DNA of 64,000 bases from Pedosphaera parvula Ellin514 (lineage in GTDB: Bacteria; Verrucomicrobiota; Verrucomicrobiia; Limisphaerales; Pedosphaeraceae). The notes under the pieces were generated by a model that saw nothing but the letters and a program-made list of their open reading frames with translations, was not told the DNA's origin and made no database searches. This document shows, piece by piece, positions 8,551 through 44,132 of this stretch (position 1 is the first letter of the stretch; each line of letters begins with the position of its first letter). The stretch is from the NCBI RefSeq assembly GCF_000172555.1, contig NZ_ABOX02000042.1, positions 1-64,000 of the forward strand. The letters are read 5' to 3'. The translations under genes were made by a program, and so were the position numbers.

Positions 8551-11500
8551 ATGAAGGCCATCTTGCTAATTTCCCTCGTCATCTGGTGCAGCCTTGTTCC
8601 ATCGTTTGGTCAGACCGCCAATTACCAGCAACTAAAAGCTGAAGCAGAAAAGTTTTTTTCCGAAGGTTCCTACGCCAAAGCGCATGATGTGTACGAGCGG
8701 GCCGGGAAGCTGCCCTTGTCAACCAATGACACCCGCTGGGTTAAGTTCCGCCTTGCCGACACTCTCTGGCGTTCCCAAGCCGCCACCCAAACCTCGGATA
8801 ATACAAAATTTGAAACTGCCCGCCATGATCTCGAAGTCCTGGTGCGCGATCGTCAACGGGAGGATGAGCACGATCGCGTCTGGGCGGAAGTGGAAGAGTC
8901 TTTGGGAGACTTCTTCTGGACTCGTCGGAATAATAATGATTGGGGCGGAGGATGGCCCCACTATCAACACGCTCTCGATTGGTGGGCTGGTCAAAGTGAT
9001 CTCGCTGTTGCCCGCGAACGGTATCTAAAAATCGTCTGGACCATGGCCAAACCTGCCAATCTGCAAATCCCGTATTATTACTATGGTTATTGGGGAAATA
9101 ACATTCCCGTGGACGTCCTCGATAATGCTCTCACGATTGCTAAAACAGAGGAGGACAAGGCCCACGCCCATTACCTGTTGGCGATGACTCTGCGCAATCA
9201 AAGCGGCGACTGGGATCAACGTCAACGCGTGGTGGAAGAATTCGAAGGTGCCATCAAGCTGGGCAAAAAAACCGATTGGTACGATGACGCTCTTTATAAC
9301 TACGGAGTTTGGATGACAAGCTACGGCCGCATTATCCTGCTCAAAGACGGGAACTGGAGCCAGGAACCGGACTATCATAAAGCCCTCGCTTTGTTCCAGA
9401 AGATCACCAGCGAATTTAAGCAAGGTGAAACCCGCTACTGGGAGCAAGCTCAACAGCAAATCAAAGGCATCATCGATCCACAGCTAAGCGTTGGCGTAGG
9501 AAATATCTTCCTGCCCGATTCTGAAATTCAGTATTCCCTGAATTGGCGAAATATCAAACACCTTGATCTGGCTTTATACCCGGTGAGTCTTCCTGACGAC
9601 GTAAAATTCGAGGCGCGGGATGATCAACATCCGGACTGGTTGCACGCCATCAATCTGGGTGGCCGCGAAAAGATCAAGTCATGGTCGCGGGAAACCAATG
9701 ACAAAGGCGATTACAAACCAGGCAACGATACGGTGCGACTCGATGGCAAACTTCCACCCGGGGCTTACATCCTCGAGGCAAAAAGTGGTGACGTGAGTGC
9801 CCGAGATCTCATTTTGATTACCGACGCTGCCATCGTGCTTAAATCTTCCGGCAAGCAGGCTTTGGTTTACGTGGCGAATGCTCTCAACAGTGCCCCGCTA
9901 GCCAATGCCAGGGTCAGCTTATGGGAACGCTATTACCGGGACAACCATTGGCATGTGCGTCAAATGTCCAAGGATGCGAATAAAGACGGGATCGCGGTAT
10001 TCGACTTAACCGAGCGGGTTGACAACAACAATGTGGAATTGTTTGCGAGCGCCATTTCCAAAGATCGTCAGGCCTTTAGCGCCGGAAACAATTACTACTA
10101 CGGCTACCAACATCAAGATCAGCCCTGGCGCATTTACGCGTTCACCGATCGTCCCGCCTATCGCCCGGAAGAAACGGTGCAGTGGAAATTCATTGCCCGT
10201 CGCCACAATGGCTCCGTCTATTCAACGCCAGCTAACCAAACGATCGAATTCCAAATTGATGATCCGCGTGGAACCAAGGTCAAGGCGGATAAGGCCAGTT
10301 TGAACGCCTTTGGCAGTGCGTGGGGTTCGCTGGATTTAACCACCAACATGCCGCTGGGCGAATATCGTGTGACTTTCTGGGAGGATGCGGCTCACACTAA
10401 ACAGATTGGCAACGCCACGCTGTTCCGCCTCGAAGAATACAAACTGCCGGAGTTCAAGGTTAGTGTTCAAACGCCTGAAGAGGATGGCAAAAAGAAAACC
10501 TTCATTCCTGGCGAAAAAGTCGAAGTCAACATTCAGGCGGATTATTACTTCGGCGGCCCGGTGTCGGATGCGAGTGTGGAAGTAGTCGTGTACCAGAATC
10601 CATTTTATCACTATTGGTATCGCCCTCACGACTTTCCCTGGTTCTATGAAGACATGTCACCCGGCTATCAGTACTCTCGCTCTTACAGTGGCAACGGCCA
10701 GATCATCAAACGTGAAACCATCAAAACAGATGTTACCGGCAAGGCGAAGTTAACGTTCGATACGCCGCGCGGTTCAGGACAGGATTACGAATACCGCATT
10801 GAAGCCCGCGTCACCGATGCCAGCCGCCGTGAAATCGTTGGCAACGGAACCGTCCGTGTCACCAAACAACGTTACTACGTTTACCCTGAACCGGAGCATA
10901 ATCTCTATCGACCGCAGGATAAGGTAACCGTCGATTTCAAGGCCCTCGACGCCAATGAGCAACCAGTGGAAACCGAGGGTAACGTCAAGGTCACCCGCGA
11001 CTATTGGTATGAAATCTGGCTGAATCCCGAGGGCAAGGAAATCAAGGGGGATGAGTTAAAACGCATTCGCAACCAAAGCATGATTTTCCCGCCTCCACCT
11101 GCGAAGCCGGATGGCCACGATTGGCAACTCAAGTTCCGTGGCTATCAACACGATGAAATTTTAACACGCACACTGAAGACGGATACCAATGGCACGGCAC
11201 AACTCACCTTCACGCCGGAGCGCGAAGGTTATTATCGGATTAGTTGGACAAGCCAGGACTCAAAAACGAATACGCGTCCAGCCGCGCCGATTCAGGCAGA
11301 GACTTATGTCTGGGTGGCGACAGGTTCGACCACTGAGTTGGGCTATCGTCACGGCGGTTTGGAAATCATCGTTGATAAGGACACCTTCCGTGTCGGCCAA
11401 AAGGCGCCGGTCATGCTGAGTGTTCCGACCAATGATCGTTACGTGCTCTTCAGCGTTGAAGGCGAGGACCTGTATAGTTACCAACTCGTTCATGTTACTG

Positions 11501-14500
11501 GCACGGTAAAACTGGTGGAACTGCCCATCGAAGAGAAACATGTGCCGAATGTCTTCCTCAATGCAACGTTGCTCAGCGATCGTCAAATCTTCACTGATAC
11601 AAAGCAAGTTGTCGTTCCACCCACACGCAACTTCCTGAATGTGGAGGTCAAATCAGATCGTGAACAATATCAACCGCGCGAACAAGGCACATTCACCATC
11701 ACAACGCGCGATTACAATAACAAGCCCGTGCCGGCTGAAGTCTCCTTCGGCCTGGTGGATGAATCGGTTTACTACATCCAGTCCGATTATGCTGGCGATC
11801 CACGCCAATTCTATTACGGCCAAAAGCGCCAGCAGGAGATCCAGTCCCAAAGCACCTTCAACCAAAAGAGCTACGCCAGACTGGTGCCGGGAAATGAAAA
11901 TCAGTTGATGGATGAAAGAGATCGTGAGGAATCCAAATACCAACGCAATAGAAAGGATGCTGATTTTGAAAGCCTTGATAGGAACAAAGACACGTATTAT
12001 AACGGCATGGCTACTGCCCAATTCGCTTTCGACTCGCTGGCAAAAAGCGAAGGCCGCGCCTCATTAGCGGGTGGAATGGCGGGAAACGAACCGGCAGCGG
12101 CCGCGCCAATGTTGGGACGACGGATGGCAAAGGAAAACAAATTGTCGGTGGCAGAAAAGCAGAAAGCTCCAGGACAAGCACCCGAGCAGGAGCCCGCAGT
12201 GCAGGTACGCTCGGATTTCCGTTCCACCATTCTCTGGAAGCCGGATGTGACTACGGGTGAGGATGGAAAGGCGACCATCAAAGTCACCTACCCCGATTCG
12301 TTGACTGGTTGGCGAGCCACGGCTCGGGCGGTGACTGACGCCAACCAATTTGGAATGGCCACCAATACGACCCGCACCAAACAGCCATTGATTGTCCGCC
12401 TGCAGGCACCACGCTTTTTCCTGGTTGGCGATGAAGTGACAATCTCTGCGATCATTAACAATAATACGGATAAAGCCATGGAGATCAGGGAGCCCGGACT
12501 TGATATACAAGGCCTGGAGCTGAAGGTGGGCCCTAACGGTAGAGACCCGCATCCTAACCGCGAAGTTCCATTCGAAGTAAAGGTGCCTGCTCAAGGGGAG
12601 GCCCGGGTAGACTGGGTGGTTACCGTAACAAAGCCAGGAATGGCTAAGTTGAAAGCATTTGCCCGAGAAGGCAAATACGCCGATGCCATGGAAAAATCCT
12701 ATCCCATTTACGAGCACGGCATCGAGAAGTTCATTTCCAAGTCCGGCAAGGTACGGGGTGATGATGTCACTGTGAAACTCAATATCCCCAAGGAGAGAAA
12801 GCCTGAATCTACTTCATTGATCGTGCAAGTCACCCCCAGCATGGCAGTAACCATGCTCGATGCCTTGCCCTATCTGATCGATTATCCGTATGGCTGCACG
12901 GAACAAACCATGAGCCGCTTCCTCCCTGCGGCCATCACAGCCAAGACACTTAAAGATCTCGGGCTGAATCCCGAAGATGTGATGAGCCGCGTCTTTGGCG
13001 GCATCGAACAGACCAACGCTGCCGCGACACATCCGAATGGCAAACAGGATTTGCAAAAGCTGGATGAGATGGTGAAACAAGGACTGGATCGACTTTACGA
13101 TTTTCAGCATGCCGATGGAGGTTGGGGATGGTGGAAGCAGGGCGAGAGCGATCATTGGATGACGGCTTACGTGGTCTGGGGACTCGCTCTCGCCCGGGAT
13201 GCGAAGATTGAGATCAAGAAAGATGTTTTAGATCGCGGCGCGGACTATCTCAGCAAGCGCCTTGTTGAAGAGGAGGAGAATCCAGACATGCAGGCATGGA
13301 TGCTGCACGCCTTGAGCGTGTATTACTCGCCGTTCAATGATCAACTGATGAGCCCGTTCATCGCAAAGGCTTCCGACAATCTCTGGAATAAGCGCGATCA
13401 ACTCAATGCTTACACCCGCGCGCTCTTTGCTCTCAGTGCTCACAATCTCCACCAACAAGACAGGGCAAAAACACTCATCGCCAATCTGGAGAACGGGGTG
13501 AAGCGTGATGACAAGCCTGACACTTCGGTGATCATGCAGGGTGCGCAACAATCAAATGCCGCTGTCATCGGCACCGCGCATTGGGGTGAAGATGGTTTGT
13601 ATTGGCGCTGGTCCGATGGTGGCATTGAAGCGACCGCTTTTGCGCTACGAGCCATGCTGGCGATTGATCCGCAAAACAAACTTATCGAACCCGTCACCAA
13701 CTGGCTCATCAAAAATCGGCGCGGCGCGCAATGGAGTAACACGCGTGATACCGCCATCACCGTCCTGGCGATGAACGATTATCTCCGGGTCAGTGGCGAA
13801 CTCTCGCCCGACCTCGAATATGAACTCGTGGTTAACGGACAATCCATTGCCAAAAAGAAAGTTTCGGGCACGGATGCCTTCAATGCTCCCAGCCAATTCC
13901 CGGTGGATACACAATTGATTCGTGATGGTGAAAACGAAATCAGGATCGTGCGGACCGCTGGAAAAGGGCCTATTTACTTTGCCGCCAATGCCAAATTCTT
14001 CAGTCTCGAGGAACCAATCACTCCGGCAGGCAATGAAATCTTTGTGCGCCGGCAATATTACAAATTGGTTGGTCGCCCCACCCTGCTGAAAGGTTATGTG
14101 TATGACCGCCAGCCGTTAAACGATGGTGAATCGGTAAAGAGCGGTGAACGCGTGGAAACAGTTCTGACCATCGAAGCCAAGAACAATTATGAGTACCTAC
14201 TGTTTGAGGATCTCAAACCAGCTGGTTTGGAAGCAGTGGAAGTGCGTAGCGGTGAGTCGCTTTACGCCAACGAACTGAAATCCGGATCGGTCGAGCGCAA
14301 ATTCGGCACCAACGCACCATCCACAACACCTGCACCAGCTAAACCTCAACCGCCACGCGCCACCAAACGTCGAGTACTTACCTCAGGTGCAAGCGCCATC
14401 CGCCCAGTTTCAGTTCCAACTCCTGCCCCGTCGCAGGATGACGACCACACGGGGCGCACACGCTGGGTTTACCAGGAATTGCGAGACCGCAAGGTGGCAC

Positions 14501-14667
14501 TATTTATCGACAAATTACCGGAAGGTGTTTGGGAAATTAAATACAATCTCCGTGCCGAAGTGCCTGGCCAGTTTCACGCGCTACCTGTCGTGGGTCACGC
14601 GATGTATGTGCCGGAAATCCGTTGCAATGGAGCGGAGATAAAAATCAACGTCGACGAAGCAAAATAA
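8551..14667 (+). CDS. bacterial alpha-2-macroglobulin family protein
   Basis: A 2038-residue secreted protein with a signal peptide (residues 1-20). Residues 20-300 look helical and TPR-like, an extension absent from E. coli YfhM. They are followed by macroglobulin beta-sandwich repeats, including the bait-region neighbourhood around residues 1090-1230, which is low in complexity and rich in Q, K, E and A. The thioester motif GCTEQ is intact at about residue 1449, followed by the alpha-helical toroid (YDFQHADGGWGWWK, SDHWMTAYVVWGLALA). Bacterial A2Ms are thought to trap attacking proteases by covalent linkage. They often sit next to the penicillin-binding protein gene pbpC; none is adjacent here. 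A further proline-rich insert lies near residues 1910-1970. Confidence 0.92.
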   Translation: MKAILLISLVIWCSLVPSFGQTANYQQLKAEAEKFFSEGSYAKAHDVYERAGKLPLSTNDTRWVKFRLADTLWRSQAATQTSDNTKFETARHDLEVLVRDRQREDEHDRVWAEVEESLGDFFWTRRNNNDWGGGWPHYQHALDWWAGQSDLAVARERYLKIVWTMAKPANLQIPYYYYGYWGNNIPVDVLDNALTIAKTEEDKAHAHYLLAMTLRNQSGDWDQRQRVVEEFEGAIKLGKKTDWYDDALYNYGVWMTSYGRIILLKDGNWSQEPDYHKALALFQKITSEFKQGETRYWEQAQQQIKGIIDPQLSVGVGNIFLPDSEIQYSLNWRNIKHLDLALYPVSLPDDVKFEARDDQHPDWLHAINLGGREKIKSWSRETNDKGDYKPGNDTVRLDGKLPPGAYILEAKSGDVSARDLILITDAAIVLKSSGKQALVYVANALNSAPLANARVSLWERYYRDNHWHVRQMSKDANKDGIAVFDLTERVDNNNVELFASAISKDRQAFSAGNNYYYGYQHQDQPWRIYAFTDRPAYRPEETVQWKFIARRHNGSVYSTPANQTIEFQIDDPRGTKVKADKASLNAFGSAWGSLDLTTNMPLGEYRVTFWEDAAHTKQIGNATLFRLEEYKLPEFKVSVQTPEEDGKKKTFIPGEKVEVNIQADYYFGGPVSDASVEVVVYQNPFYHYWYRPHDFPWFYEDMSPGYQYSRSYSGNGQIIKRETIKTDVTGKAKLTFDTPRGSGQDYEYRIEARVTDASRREIVGNGTVRVTKQRYYVYPEPEHNLYRPQDKVTVDFKALDANEQPVETEGNVKVTRDYWYEIWLNPEGKEIKGDELKRIRNQSMIFPPPPAKPDGHDWQLKFRGYQHDEILTRTLKTDTNGTAQLTFTPEREGYYRISWTSQDSKTNTRPAAPIQAETYVWVATGSTTELGYRHGGLEIIVDKDTFRVGQKAPVMLSVPTNDRYVLFSVEGEDLYSYQLVHVTGTVKLVELPIEEKHVPNVFLNATLLSDRQIFTDTKQVVVPPTRNFLNVEVKSDREQYQPREQGTFTITTRDYNNKPVPAEVSFGLVDESVYYIQSDYAGDPRQFYYGQKRQQEIQSQSTFNQKSYARLVPGNENQLMDERDREESKYQRNRKDADFESLDRNKDTYYNGMATAQFAFDSLAKSEGRASLAGGMAGNEPAAAAPMLGRRMAKENKLSVAEKQKAPGQAPEQEPAVQVRSDFRSTILWKPDVTTGEDGKATIKVTYPDSLTGWRATARAVTDANQFGMATNTTRTKQPLIVRLQAPRFFLVGDEVTISAIINNNTDKAMEIREPGLDIQGLELKVGPNGRDPHPNREVPFEVKVPAQGEARVDWVVTVTKPGMAKLKAFAREGKYADAMEKSYPIYEHGIEKFISKSGKVRGDDVTVKLNIPKERKPESTSLIVQVTPSMAVTMLDALPYLIDYPYGCTEQTMSRFLPAAITAKTLKDLGLNPEDVMSRVFGGIEQTNAAATHPNGKQDLQKLDEMVKQGLDRLYDFQHADGGWGWWKQGESDHWMTAYVVWGLALARDAKIEIKKDVLDRGADYLSKRLVEEEENPDMQAWMLHALSVYYSPFNDQLMSPFIAKASDNLWNKRDQLNAYTRALFALSAHNLHQQDRAKTLIANLENGVKRDDKPDTSVIMQGAQQSNAAVIGTAHWGEDGLYWRWSDGGIEATAFALRAMLAIDPQNKLIEPVTNWLIKNRRGAQWSNTRDTAITVLAMNDYLRVSGELSPDLEYELVVNGQSIAKKKVSGTDAFNAPSQFPVDTQLIRDGENEIRIVRTAGKGPIYFAANAKFFSLEEPITPAGNEIFVRRQYYKLVGRPTLLKGYVYDRQPLNDGESVKSGERVETVLTIEAKNNYEYLLFEDLKPAGLEAVEVRSGESLYANELKSGSVERKFGTNAPSTTPAPAKPQPPRATKRRVLTSGASAIRPVSVPTPAPSQDDDHTGRTRWVYQELRDRKVALFIDKLPEGVWEIKYNLRAEVPGQFHALPVVGHAMYVPEIRCNGAEIKINVDEAK

Positions 14668-42368: not shown

Positions 42369-44132
42369 TTATTTAAACAGATACGAGATGCTCCCGCCCA
42401 AGGTACCCCAACCATTCCAACTCGTGCTGTTCGCCGAGGGATACTCGTAGTTGTTCCAGACCGCGTTGGTGGTGCTGCCGATGCTGATGTCCAGCCGTCC
42501 ATCCGCATTGTTGCCAACGGCAACGGCGTCGCCGGCCTTGATCGCTGCGCCCGCTCCCAGGCTCACCCAGCCATTCCAGCCGCCATTCGGAGCAGATTGA
42601 TAATTATGATAAACATTCCCGTCCGTCCCGACGCCATAAAGCTCGATGCGCCCATCCAGATTGTGGCCGGCCGTTATGCGGGAACTGATCGATCCTCCCA
42701 GACTGGCCCAACCGTTCCAAGCGCCGTTGGCCGTGGTTTCATAATTGTGCCAGACGACATGGTTGGTATCGACCGTATAGACTTCCAGGCGGCCGTCCGC
42801 ATTTTGAGCTGCGACCGGCACGCGTTGACTTCCCCCGGCGGGCGCACCCAGGCTCACCCAGCCACTCCAACTCCCGCTCGGACTCGCTTGATGATTATAA
42901 TAAACCGCCCCGCCAGTCCCGTTCGCGTAAAGCTCAGCGCGTCCATCCTGTTCGCGTGCTGCCGCGAGATCCGAAGTGATGGCTCCGCTCAAGCTAATCC
43001 AGCCATACCAACTGCCACCCGCCGTGGTCTGGAAATTATCATACACGATATTATTGGTGCCGCGCGCGCACAATTCCAGACGCCCATCGATATCCACGGC
43101 CACCACCGGGGTGCCTTGCATTCCCGGACTCACCAGGTCGGCCCAGGCGCTCCAACTGCCATTAGGAGTGGATTGATACGTGTGCCAGATGCTGTTGTTC
43201 GAGCCGCGAGCAAACGCTTCCAACCGGCCGTCCGCATTGCGGGCAACCGTGACGCCGCTCTGCACTCCGGATAATCCCGTCGTCACCCAGCCATTCCAGC
43301 CGCCATTGGGCGTCGATTGAACATTGTGATAAACGCTCCCGTCTGTGCCTACACCCCACAAGTCCAGCCGACCGTCGGCATTGGTGTTGATCGGCTGCGA
43401 GGCCCAGGTCCACAACGGTATCGGCGGCGCCAGGTTGCCGAACGGGTTATTCGTATTGTGCACCACGCCATAGAAGTAACGATCCGGCCATCCAGAACGG
43501 CTGAGAGACGAACCGTTCACTCCTGAACGACTCATGATGTCGCGCCCGGTTGCAACCGAATTCTGCTCGCAAATATAAACATTGTAGGAGTCCACATAAT
43601 CCACCACCGCCACATGCCCGGCATGTCCGCTGTTGGGTAGCGTCGACTTCCAGACCAGCAAATCCCCGGAAACCGGCACATACCCGCTTCCATTGTTGTA
43701 GGAAGTGCCCACGTCCGGATTATTAAAAAGCTGGTAGGCAGAACTGACAGCCCACGCACCGCAATGCCAGCCACGCACCGTGTACAACCGCTGCGGCATC
43801 TCCACACACTGCCACTCGCAACCCGTATACACACTCTGCCCGCTCGATGGACAAATCGTGTATGAACTCCCCCAACCGCAACAACACACACCGGCATTAT
43901 TGAAAATATCCACGCCCAATCCTCCCAGCCACGCATTGGAATGGACAATCAGCGTTGCAGTCTGCCCATGCGCAGAATAACCAGCCACAGTCATCAACGC
44001 GGCGACGACCATGCCCAGCCACAACGCCCGGCAACGAAGTGCAAATGAAAATAAAACTGAATTCCTGTTTCGCGACGCTTCGGTTCCTTGTCCCGAACGT
44101 CCCATCGGTACGGCCTTTCTTGTATAGTTCAT
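42369..44132 (-). CDS. secreted CHAP hydrolase fused to a seven-bladed lectin-like propeller
   Basis: The start at 44132 (MNYTRKAVPMGRSG) is chosen because the signal peptide follows it directly; an ATG at 44216 is possible. After the signal peptide (ending near HGQ) comes a cysteine-rich CHAP domain. Its active-site pair is the Cys of RGWHCGAWAVSS and the His of NSGHAGHVAVVDYV; CHAP enzymes are amidases or endopeptidases that cut peptidoglycan. The second half holds seven repeats of about 46 residues, each with DGRLE- and NGW-type signatures (e.g. DGRLDLWGVGTDGSVYHN, DGRLEVYTVDTNHVVWHN), as in PLL-family fucose-binding seven-bladed lectins. It is probably an exported wall hydrolase that is targeted by glycan binding. 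An extra Cys cluster (VCCCGWGSSYTICP) precedes CHAP. Confidence 0.88.
   Translation of the reverse strand: MNYTRKAVPMGRSGQGTEASRNRNSVLFSFALRCRALWLGMVVAALMTVAGYSAHGQTATLIVHSNAWLGGLGVDIFNNAGVCCCGWGSSYTICPSSGQSVYTGCEWQCVEMPQRLYTVRGWHCGAWAVSSAYQLFNNPDVGTSYNNGSGYVPVSGDLLVWKSTLPNSGHAGHVAVVDYVDSYNVYICEQNSVATGRDIMSRSGVNGSSLSRSGWPDRYFYGVVHNTNNPFGNLAPPIPLWTWASQPINTNADGRLDLWGVGTDGSVYHNVQSTPNGGWNGWVTTGLSGVQSGVTVARNADGRLEAFARGSNNSIWHTYQSTPNGSWSAWADLVSPGMQGTPVVAVDIDGRLELCARGTNNIVYDNFQTTAGGSWYGWISLSGAITSDLAAAREQDGRAELYANGTGGAVYYNHQASPSGSWSGWVSLGAPAGGSQRVPVAAQNADGRLEVYTVDTNHVVWHNYETTANGAWNGWASLGGSISSRITAGHNLDGRIELYGVGTDGNVYHNYQSAPNGGWNGWVSLGAGAAIKAGDAVAVGNNADGRLDISIGSTTNAVWNNYEYPSANSTSWNGWGTLGGSISYLFK

Follow-up and report, generated by a model that had tools for sequence, protein, structure and literature searches.

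A CHAP hydrolase joined to a seven-bladed PLL-type propeller in Pedosphaera parvula, a probable member of a secreted bacteriolytic arsenal

Introduction

Most of what is known of PLL lectins comes from the insect pathogen Photorhabdus, where they are taken to be host-directed. The Photorhabdus members of the family (PLL, PLL2-5 and PHL, alternatively named PropLec7A) bind L-fucose and O-methylated sugars, and no signal peptides are recognised in the Photorhabdus copies (PMC12203525); DUF346 was earlier assigned as PLL-like (excerpt of PMC7778903). Modular peptidoglycan hydrolases and phage endolysins pair a catalytic head with an SH3b, LysM or PG_binding_1 tail, and domain shuffling is a hallmark of such hydrolases (excerpt of PMC12352652), a source in which archaeal wall hydrolases with modular tails are also described as killing bacteria. 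In Streptomyces, the umbrella-toxin protein UmbA4 is a C-terminal beta-propeller lectin, with diversified tails, that aims a secreted antibacterial at a wall glycan, namely a wall polymer resembling teichuronic acid on the Streptomyces cells that it targets (excerpt of PMC13274773). GH25 heads, finally, are probable antibacterial enzymes (excerpt of PMC4241558).

Here we describe a gene from Pedosphaera parvula Ellin514 whose product joins a CHAP head to a PLL-type propeller. The window, by which we mean the whole stretch of DNA that was analysed, is 64,000 nucleotides long. Like the Photorhabdus lectins, the window protein has seven W-blades, DGRLE motifs, the same fold and most of the sugar-site residues, but whereas those lectins stand alone, its propeller follows a CHAP head and the N-terminus is signal-like. 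Where modular hydrolases and endolysins bear the tails named above, it bears a propeller lectin, and where Umb particles are built from several proteins, the toxin being a separate one, head and lectin here form one chain, a likeness by description. Modular wall hydrolases, their domain shuffling and PLL lectins are thus already known; what is new is the PLL tail on wall hydrolases, their scale in one genome and the reshuffling of heads and tails. In the open literature, which leaves most subscription journals outside, we found no report of a PLL propeller on a muramidase, amidase or CHAP domain.

Results and Discussion

The window protein and its CHAP head

The gene occupies 42369..44132 on the minus strand and reads from an ATG at 44132 to its stop as 587 aa, a CHAP domain followed by a seven-bladed PLL propeller. 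Residues 1-57 (43962..44132, minus) resemble a signal peptide by heuristic criteria, with a putative start codon and cleavage site: a hydrophobic stretch at about residues 39-50 is followed by SAHGQ. This agrees with the secreted CHAP domain of the initial annotation, and the protein is predicted to be secreted. Elsewhere in the window, an ORF of 2038 aa lies at 8551-14667 on the plus strand.

The CHAP catalytic domain spans residues 102-191 (43560..43829, minus). When the N-terminal 240 aa are scanned alone it matches Pfam at E 1.2e-8, with 35.8 bits against a cut-off of 26; a Pfam scan of the full-length protein missed it. The presumed catalytic residues, placed by motif, are C109 in WQCVE, H173 in GHVAV and N191 in EQN, with E189 also present, and Cys, His and Asn are identical in all four heads aligned (that of the window protein and three others). 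It is on sequence that the CHAP domain of the initial annotation stands, as the predicted structure of the head is of low confidence, with pLDDT <50 over most of it in an AlphaFold2 model from 47 sequences and <50 throughout in a second model from 2 sequences (mean pLDDT 28).

The nearest solved relatives of the head by sequence, at weak similarity, are glutathionylspermidine amidases, CHAP-type enzymes for which no wall activity is known. We rejected this identity for the window protein: glutathionylspermidine amidase is cytoplasmic and synthetase-joined, whereas the window protein has no synthetase domain, carries a signal-like N-terminus and resembles the amidase weakly and in its head only.

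Searches of the P. parvula genome find two CHAP proteins at an E limit of 0.1 and one at 0.001. The second (L001) scores 1.7e-9 in the former search and is absent from the latter, and an hmmscan of 236 aa of it returned no CHAP match; we include it among the CHAP proteins on the strength of its head, which is 47% identical to that of the window protein and retains the residues. The L075 head, with a weak NlpC/P60 match only (E 0.035), was left out of the head counts. CHAP heads also occur on other C-termini: G420 has such a head, and a 1086-aa protein (L134:714-3971) with a different, non-propeller C-terminus has one at 39% to the head of the window protein. Viral contigs scanned twice for relatives of the CHAP head gave none, and the window protein had no match in 50,697 phage records, which leaves a phage origin without a match there. 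Among plasmid records 39 matched, none over more than 80% of the query; the 10 places listed all fall within the propeller part.

A PLL-type propeller with largely kept sugar sites

The C-terminal region holds seven DGR[LAI][ED] motifs spaced about 47-51 residues apart. With approximate boundaries drawn from the motif and a blade HMM, the blades lie on the minus strand at 43239..43382 (blade 1, DGR at residue 253), 43095..43238 (blade 2, residue 301), 42954..43094 (blade 3, residue 349), 42804..42953 (blade 4, residue 396), 42663..42803 (blade 5, residue 446), 42510..42662 (blade 6, residue 493) and 42372..42509 (blade 7, residue 544). The HMM, which was built from these same seven blades, finds exactly seven in the protein, and phmmer matches the protein to PLL2 at E 2.3e-74. 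An AlphaFold model, the check suggested with the initial annotation, gives the propeller high confidence (AlphaFold2 pLDDT mostly 90-97) and a close match to solved PLL and PHL lectins. These lectins take Foldseek ranks 1-22 and all of the top 18 entries of a second structure aligner (Z 45.4-48.2, rmsd 1.1-1.6 A), in which the propeller model scores Z 39.4 against BP39L and 35.4 against CV39L. The model thus has the seven blades of four strands, with PLL-like sequence and fold, that define the PLL type, and the seven PLL-type blades first proposed are borne out.

Site residues of PHL (excerpt of PMC5584973) were mapped by hand onto the propeller through the phmmer alignment. At the hydrophobic site (PHL Thr194, Trp199 and Trp214), all seven blades have T or S, W or Y (three W, four Y) and the second W. 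At the polar site (Arg91, Glu93, Trp107, Gln155 and Trp163), all seven have R, E or D, Q or E, and the W equivalent to Trp163. The stacking Trp107 of the Photorhabdus-type lectin, in contrast, is kept in none of the seven, being replaced by Y in four and by F, V and H in one each, whereas it is kept in 185 of 245 blades of 35 Photorhabdus proteins. Since most site residues are kept, sugar binding is likely. Fucose specificity, as initially suggested from the PLL family, is putative here, with largely conserved sites but a changed stacking residue at the polar site.

A proposed mode of action

We propose that the window protein is a secreted two-part peptidoglycan hydrolase. Its N-terminal CHAP cysteine hydrolase would cleave the peptide portion of peptidoglycan, as an amidase or an endopeptidase, while the C-terminal PLL propeller, with as many as seven sites in each of its two rings, would hold the head on its substrate. 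The glycan-targeted wall cutting suggested earlier is thereby retained as the best functional guess that can be predicted from the domains.

We further hypothesize, and consider it reasonably probable, that the gene belongs to a secreted bacteriolytic arsenal whose wall-cutting heads are interchangeable and are directed against other bacteria by lectin tails. Heads of the GH25 muramidase, Amidase_2, CHAP and M23-like kinds would cut different wall bonds, and the tails recombined with them (PLL, DUF346-type propeller, LGFP, Ig plus laminin-G, golvesin and unnamed repeats) would bind glycans of other bacteria. Other bacteria are the presumed target because the secreted-type wall hydrolases are many, the bonds they would cut are varied and the umbrella toxins set a precedent. 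Several observations count against the bacteriolytic arsenal: the low-confidence model of the CHAP head and its nearest solved relatives, the glutathionylspermidine amidases; the preponderance of peptidases among PLL-bearing proteins of other bacteria; the GH43 head on one of the genome's own PLL proteins; the loss of the Trp107 equivalent from all seven blades of the window protein; and the M23 head of L019, which scores below the Pfam cut-off and has no last HxH motif.

Putative wall-cutting heads in the P. parvula genome

The genome encodes 13 PLL-like propeller proteins, 12 of which bear a head of peptidoglycan-hydrolase type. Seven are GH25 (L015, L016, L020, L022, L023, L024 and L025, the last cut by a contig end), two are Amidase_2 (both L017 genes), two are CHAP (the window gene and L018) and one is a weak M23 (L019, 26.5 bits against a Pfam cut-off of 28.7) inserted between propeller blades; the thirteenth protein, L021, has a GH43 head. 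An M23-like domain within a PLL propeller, between late blades, is kept in two genera (L019:2150-3874 and L130:1229-3043); it is without the final HxH motif and may be inactive.

This census bears on the idea that the propeller binds fucosylated or O-methylated eukaryote glycans and that the CHAP domain acts at that surface. The closest solved propellers are indeed those of Photorhabdus lectins with L-fucose and O-methylated sugars as ligands, but the 12 of 13 peptidoglycan-hydrolase-type heads (with L025 contig-cut and the M23 below cut-off) and the lack of any sign of a host make such a role most unlikely. The host contact that the initial annotation had thought plausible finds no specific support; the four kinds of peptidoglycan-hydrolase-type head, all within this genome, point to bacterial walls.

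In all, GH25 matches number 19 in the genome (two are contig-end fragments that could be one gene) and carry several tail types, which sets the genome apart from the spread of antibacterial GH25 muramidases described so far. Each of 57 relatives has 0-3, with any at all in 10 of the 57, and 19 of 386 other genomes of the phylum have one each, in a search that scored only 8 of the candidates from P. parvula itself. Amidase_2 proteins number eight, of which L158 and L162 look different by eye, and 13 in the same-genus genome G387. The GH25 and amidase proteins keep their catalytic motifs and have, by heuristic criteria, signal-like N-termini. The tails on the remaining GH25 and amidase proteins are LGFP, laminin G with Ig, golvesin, FG-GAP-like, an unnamed GYWLV repeat, or none. 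About two dozen predicted wall-cutting enzymes are encoded, and their heads and tails appear to have been exchanged. Three similar tail-less GH25 genes lie within about 5.5 kb (L156, C7:35000-45000) and are apparently recent duplicates.

Many autolysins are CHAP, amidase or M23 enzymes, and the proteins might accordingly remodel the wall of the producer itself, during division or in a resting stage. Relatives would be expected to have such a house-keeping role in common, but GH25 counts fall from 19 to 0-3, and relatives of the window protein are absent from G387 at E 1e-8; we regard self-directed remodelling as very unlikely. In the other 57 relatives no match spans both the CHAP head and the PLL tail.

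Apparent exchange of heads and tails

BLAST among 44 proteins, comparing pairs with different heads for common tails, shows tail families shared across heads in P. parvula and its relatives at 49-61% identity. The tails of L018 (CHAP) and L019 (M23) are 61% identical over 290 residues, those of L025 (GH25) and G387 L166 (Amidase_2) 57% over 336, L161 (Amidase_2) and G393 L175 (GH25) 55% over 374, L150 (GH25) and G387 L167 (Amidase_2) 51% over 296, and L152 (GH25) and G387 L171 (Amidase_2) 49% over 230. The closest cross-head match of the window tail is L015 (GH25), at 38% over 346. One tail, a GYWLVGxDGGIFSFGDA repeat that matches no Pfam family, is found on GH25 in L150:1266-2942 and on the congener's Amidase_2 in L167:1046-2587.

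A propeller tree was built from 42 propellers, 10 of them own or from G388 and 32 taken from 89 usable named ones; the divergent propellers of L022-L025, also from P. parvula, were excluded, and the GH43-borne propeller forms a long branch. One clade (support 100/99) unites propellers carried by Amidase_2, GH25, CHAP and M23 heads. The other two P. parvula propellers carried by GH25 heads group elsewhere, in a clade (support 100/98) that includes two Verrucomicrobiota records and would fit an origin of the window in that phylum; the window propeller stands apart. The propellers of the two CHAP proteins do not group as sisters, and forcing them together costs 81.6 log units (p-AU 0.00035), while forcing the three GH25-borne propellers together costs 200 log units (p-AU 5e-30), p-values that are weakened because the groups were named after the tree was seen. 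Since the CHAP heads are 47% identical while their propellers are not sisters, the histories of head and tail differ.

A stronger form of the hypothesis would be a combinatorial arsenal of at least four head kinds and at least six tail kinds, in which every enzyme has a wall glycan of its own as target and PLL propellers serve as wall-glycan readers. We regard this form as possible, though somewhat less likely than not. If true, the lectin diversification seen in umbrella toxins would have a counterpart that is chromosomal and single-chain, a form of bet-hedging against many prey.

The strongest rival to the bacteriolytic arsenal is that the secreted enzymes digest dead walls for carbon and nitrogen, with lectin tails that only retain them and no killing involved. 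A MurNAc-6-phosphate etherase-type gene scores above the curated cut-off in the genome, and a GH43 head on this type of propeller hints at feeding on polymers. The etherase model, however, matches 20 of 20 genomes (11 of 20 above cut-off) and is thus uncoupled from the arsenal, and several tail families with swapped heads would look more like diversification of targets. We consider necromass feeding unlikely, while favouring the bacteriolytic arsenal; the benefit to the producer would be predation, competition or feeding on dead walls.

The repeated joining of PLL propellers to muramidase, amidase and CHAP heads suggests that aiming enzymes at other microbes may be a common bacterial use of these lectins. 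Natural head-and-tail pairs in the set could show whether targeting is decided by the tail, and wall lysins with lectin-type binding modules might be drawn from it.

PLL propellers in other genomes

PLL propellers had initially been described as mostly stand-alone, which the wider distribution contradicts. A scan of species genomes gave 77 loci from the best 80 of 211 candidates, and among these the propeller is accompanied by 100 aa or more in 59 of the 67 named loci from outside Photorhabdus (head lengths were taken stop to stop, and some are spurious extensions). Pfam heads in 63 extra segments from these best 80 of 211 candidates are M10 (19), PG_binding_1 (18), C1 (5), S8 (5), astacin (2) and GH25 (2), with one each of M23, Amidase_2, CHAP, SLT and GH43; one segment may count for several families, and the tally is weighted towards Arthrobacter relatives. 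PLL fusion is therefore common, chiefly to peptidases. Because PLL tails elsewhere sit mostly on peptidases, reading walls is not an intrinsic property of the tail. PLL occurs at 1e-10 in 3 of 387 genomes of the phylum, P. parvula included, in a search that scored 5 candidates per genome and so under-counts P. parvula.

GH43 heads on PLL-type propellers occur in P. parvula (L021:1884-4073) and in Nonomuraea (L093:2930-5056). In three other genomes (L129 in G391, L131 in G401 and L132 in G388), PLL propellers are joined to long two-component-type sensors with regulator-propeller repeats, and kinase-like motifs can be seen by eye near the end of the stretch in L129 and L131. Judging from their sequences, these fusions are possible sugar sensors.
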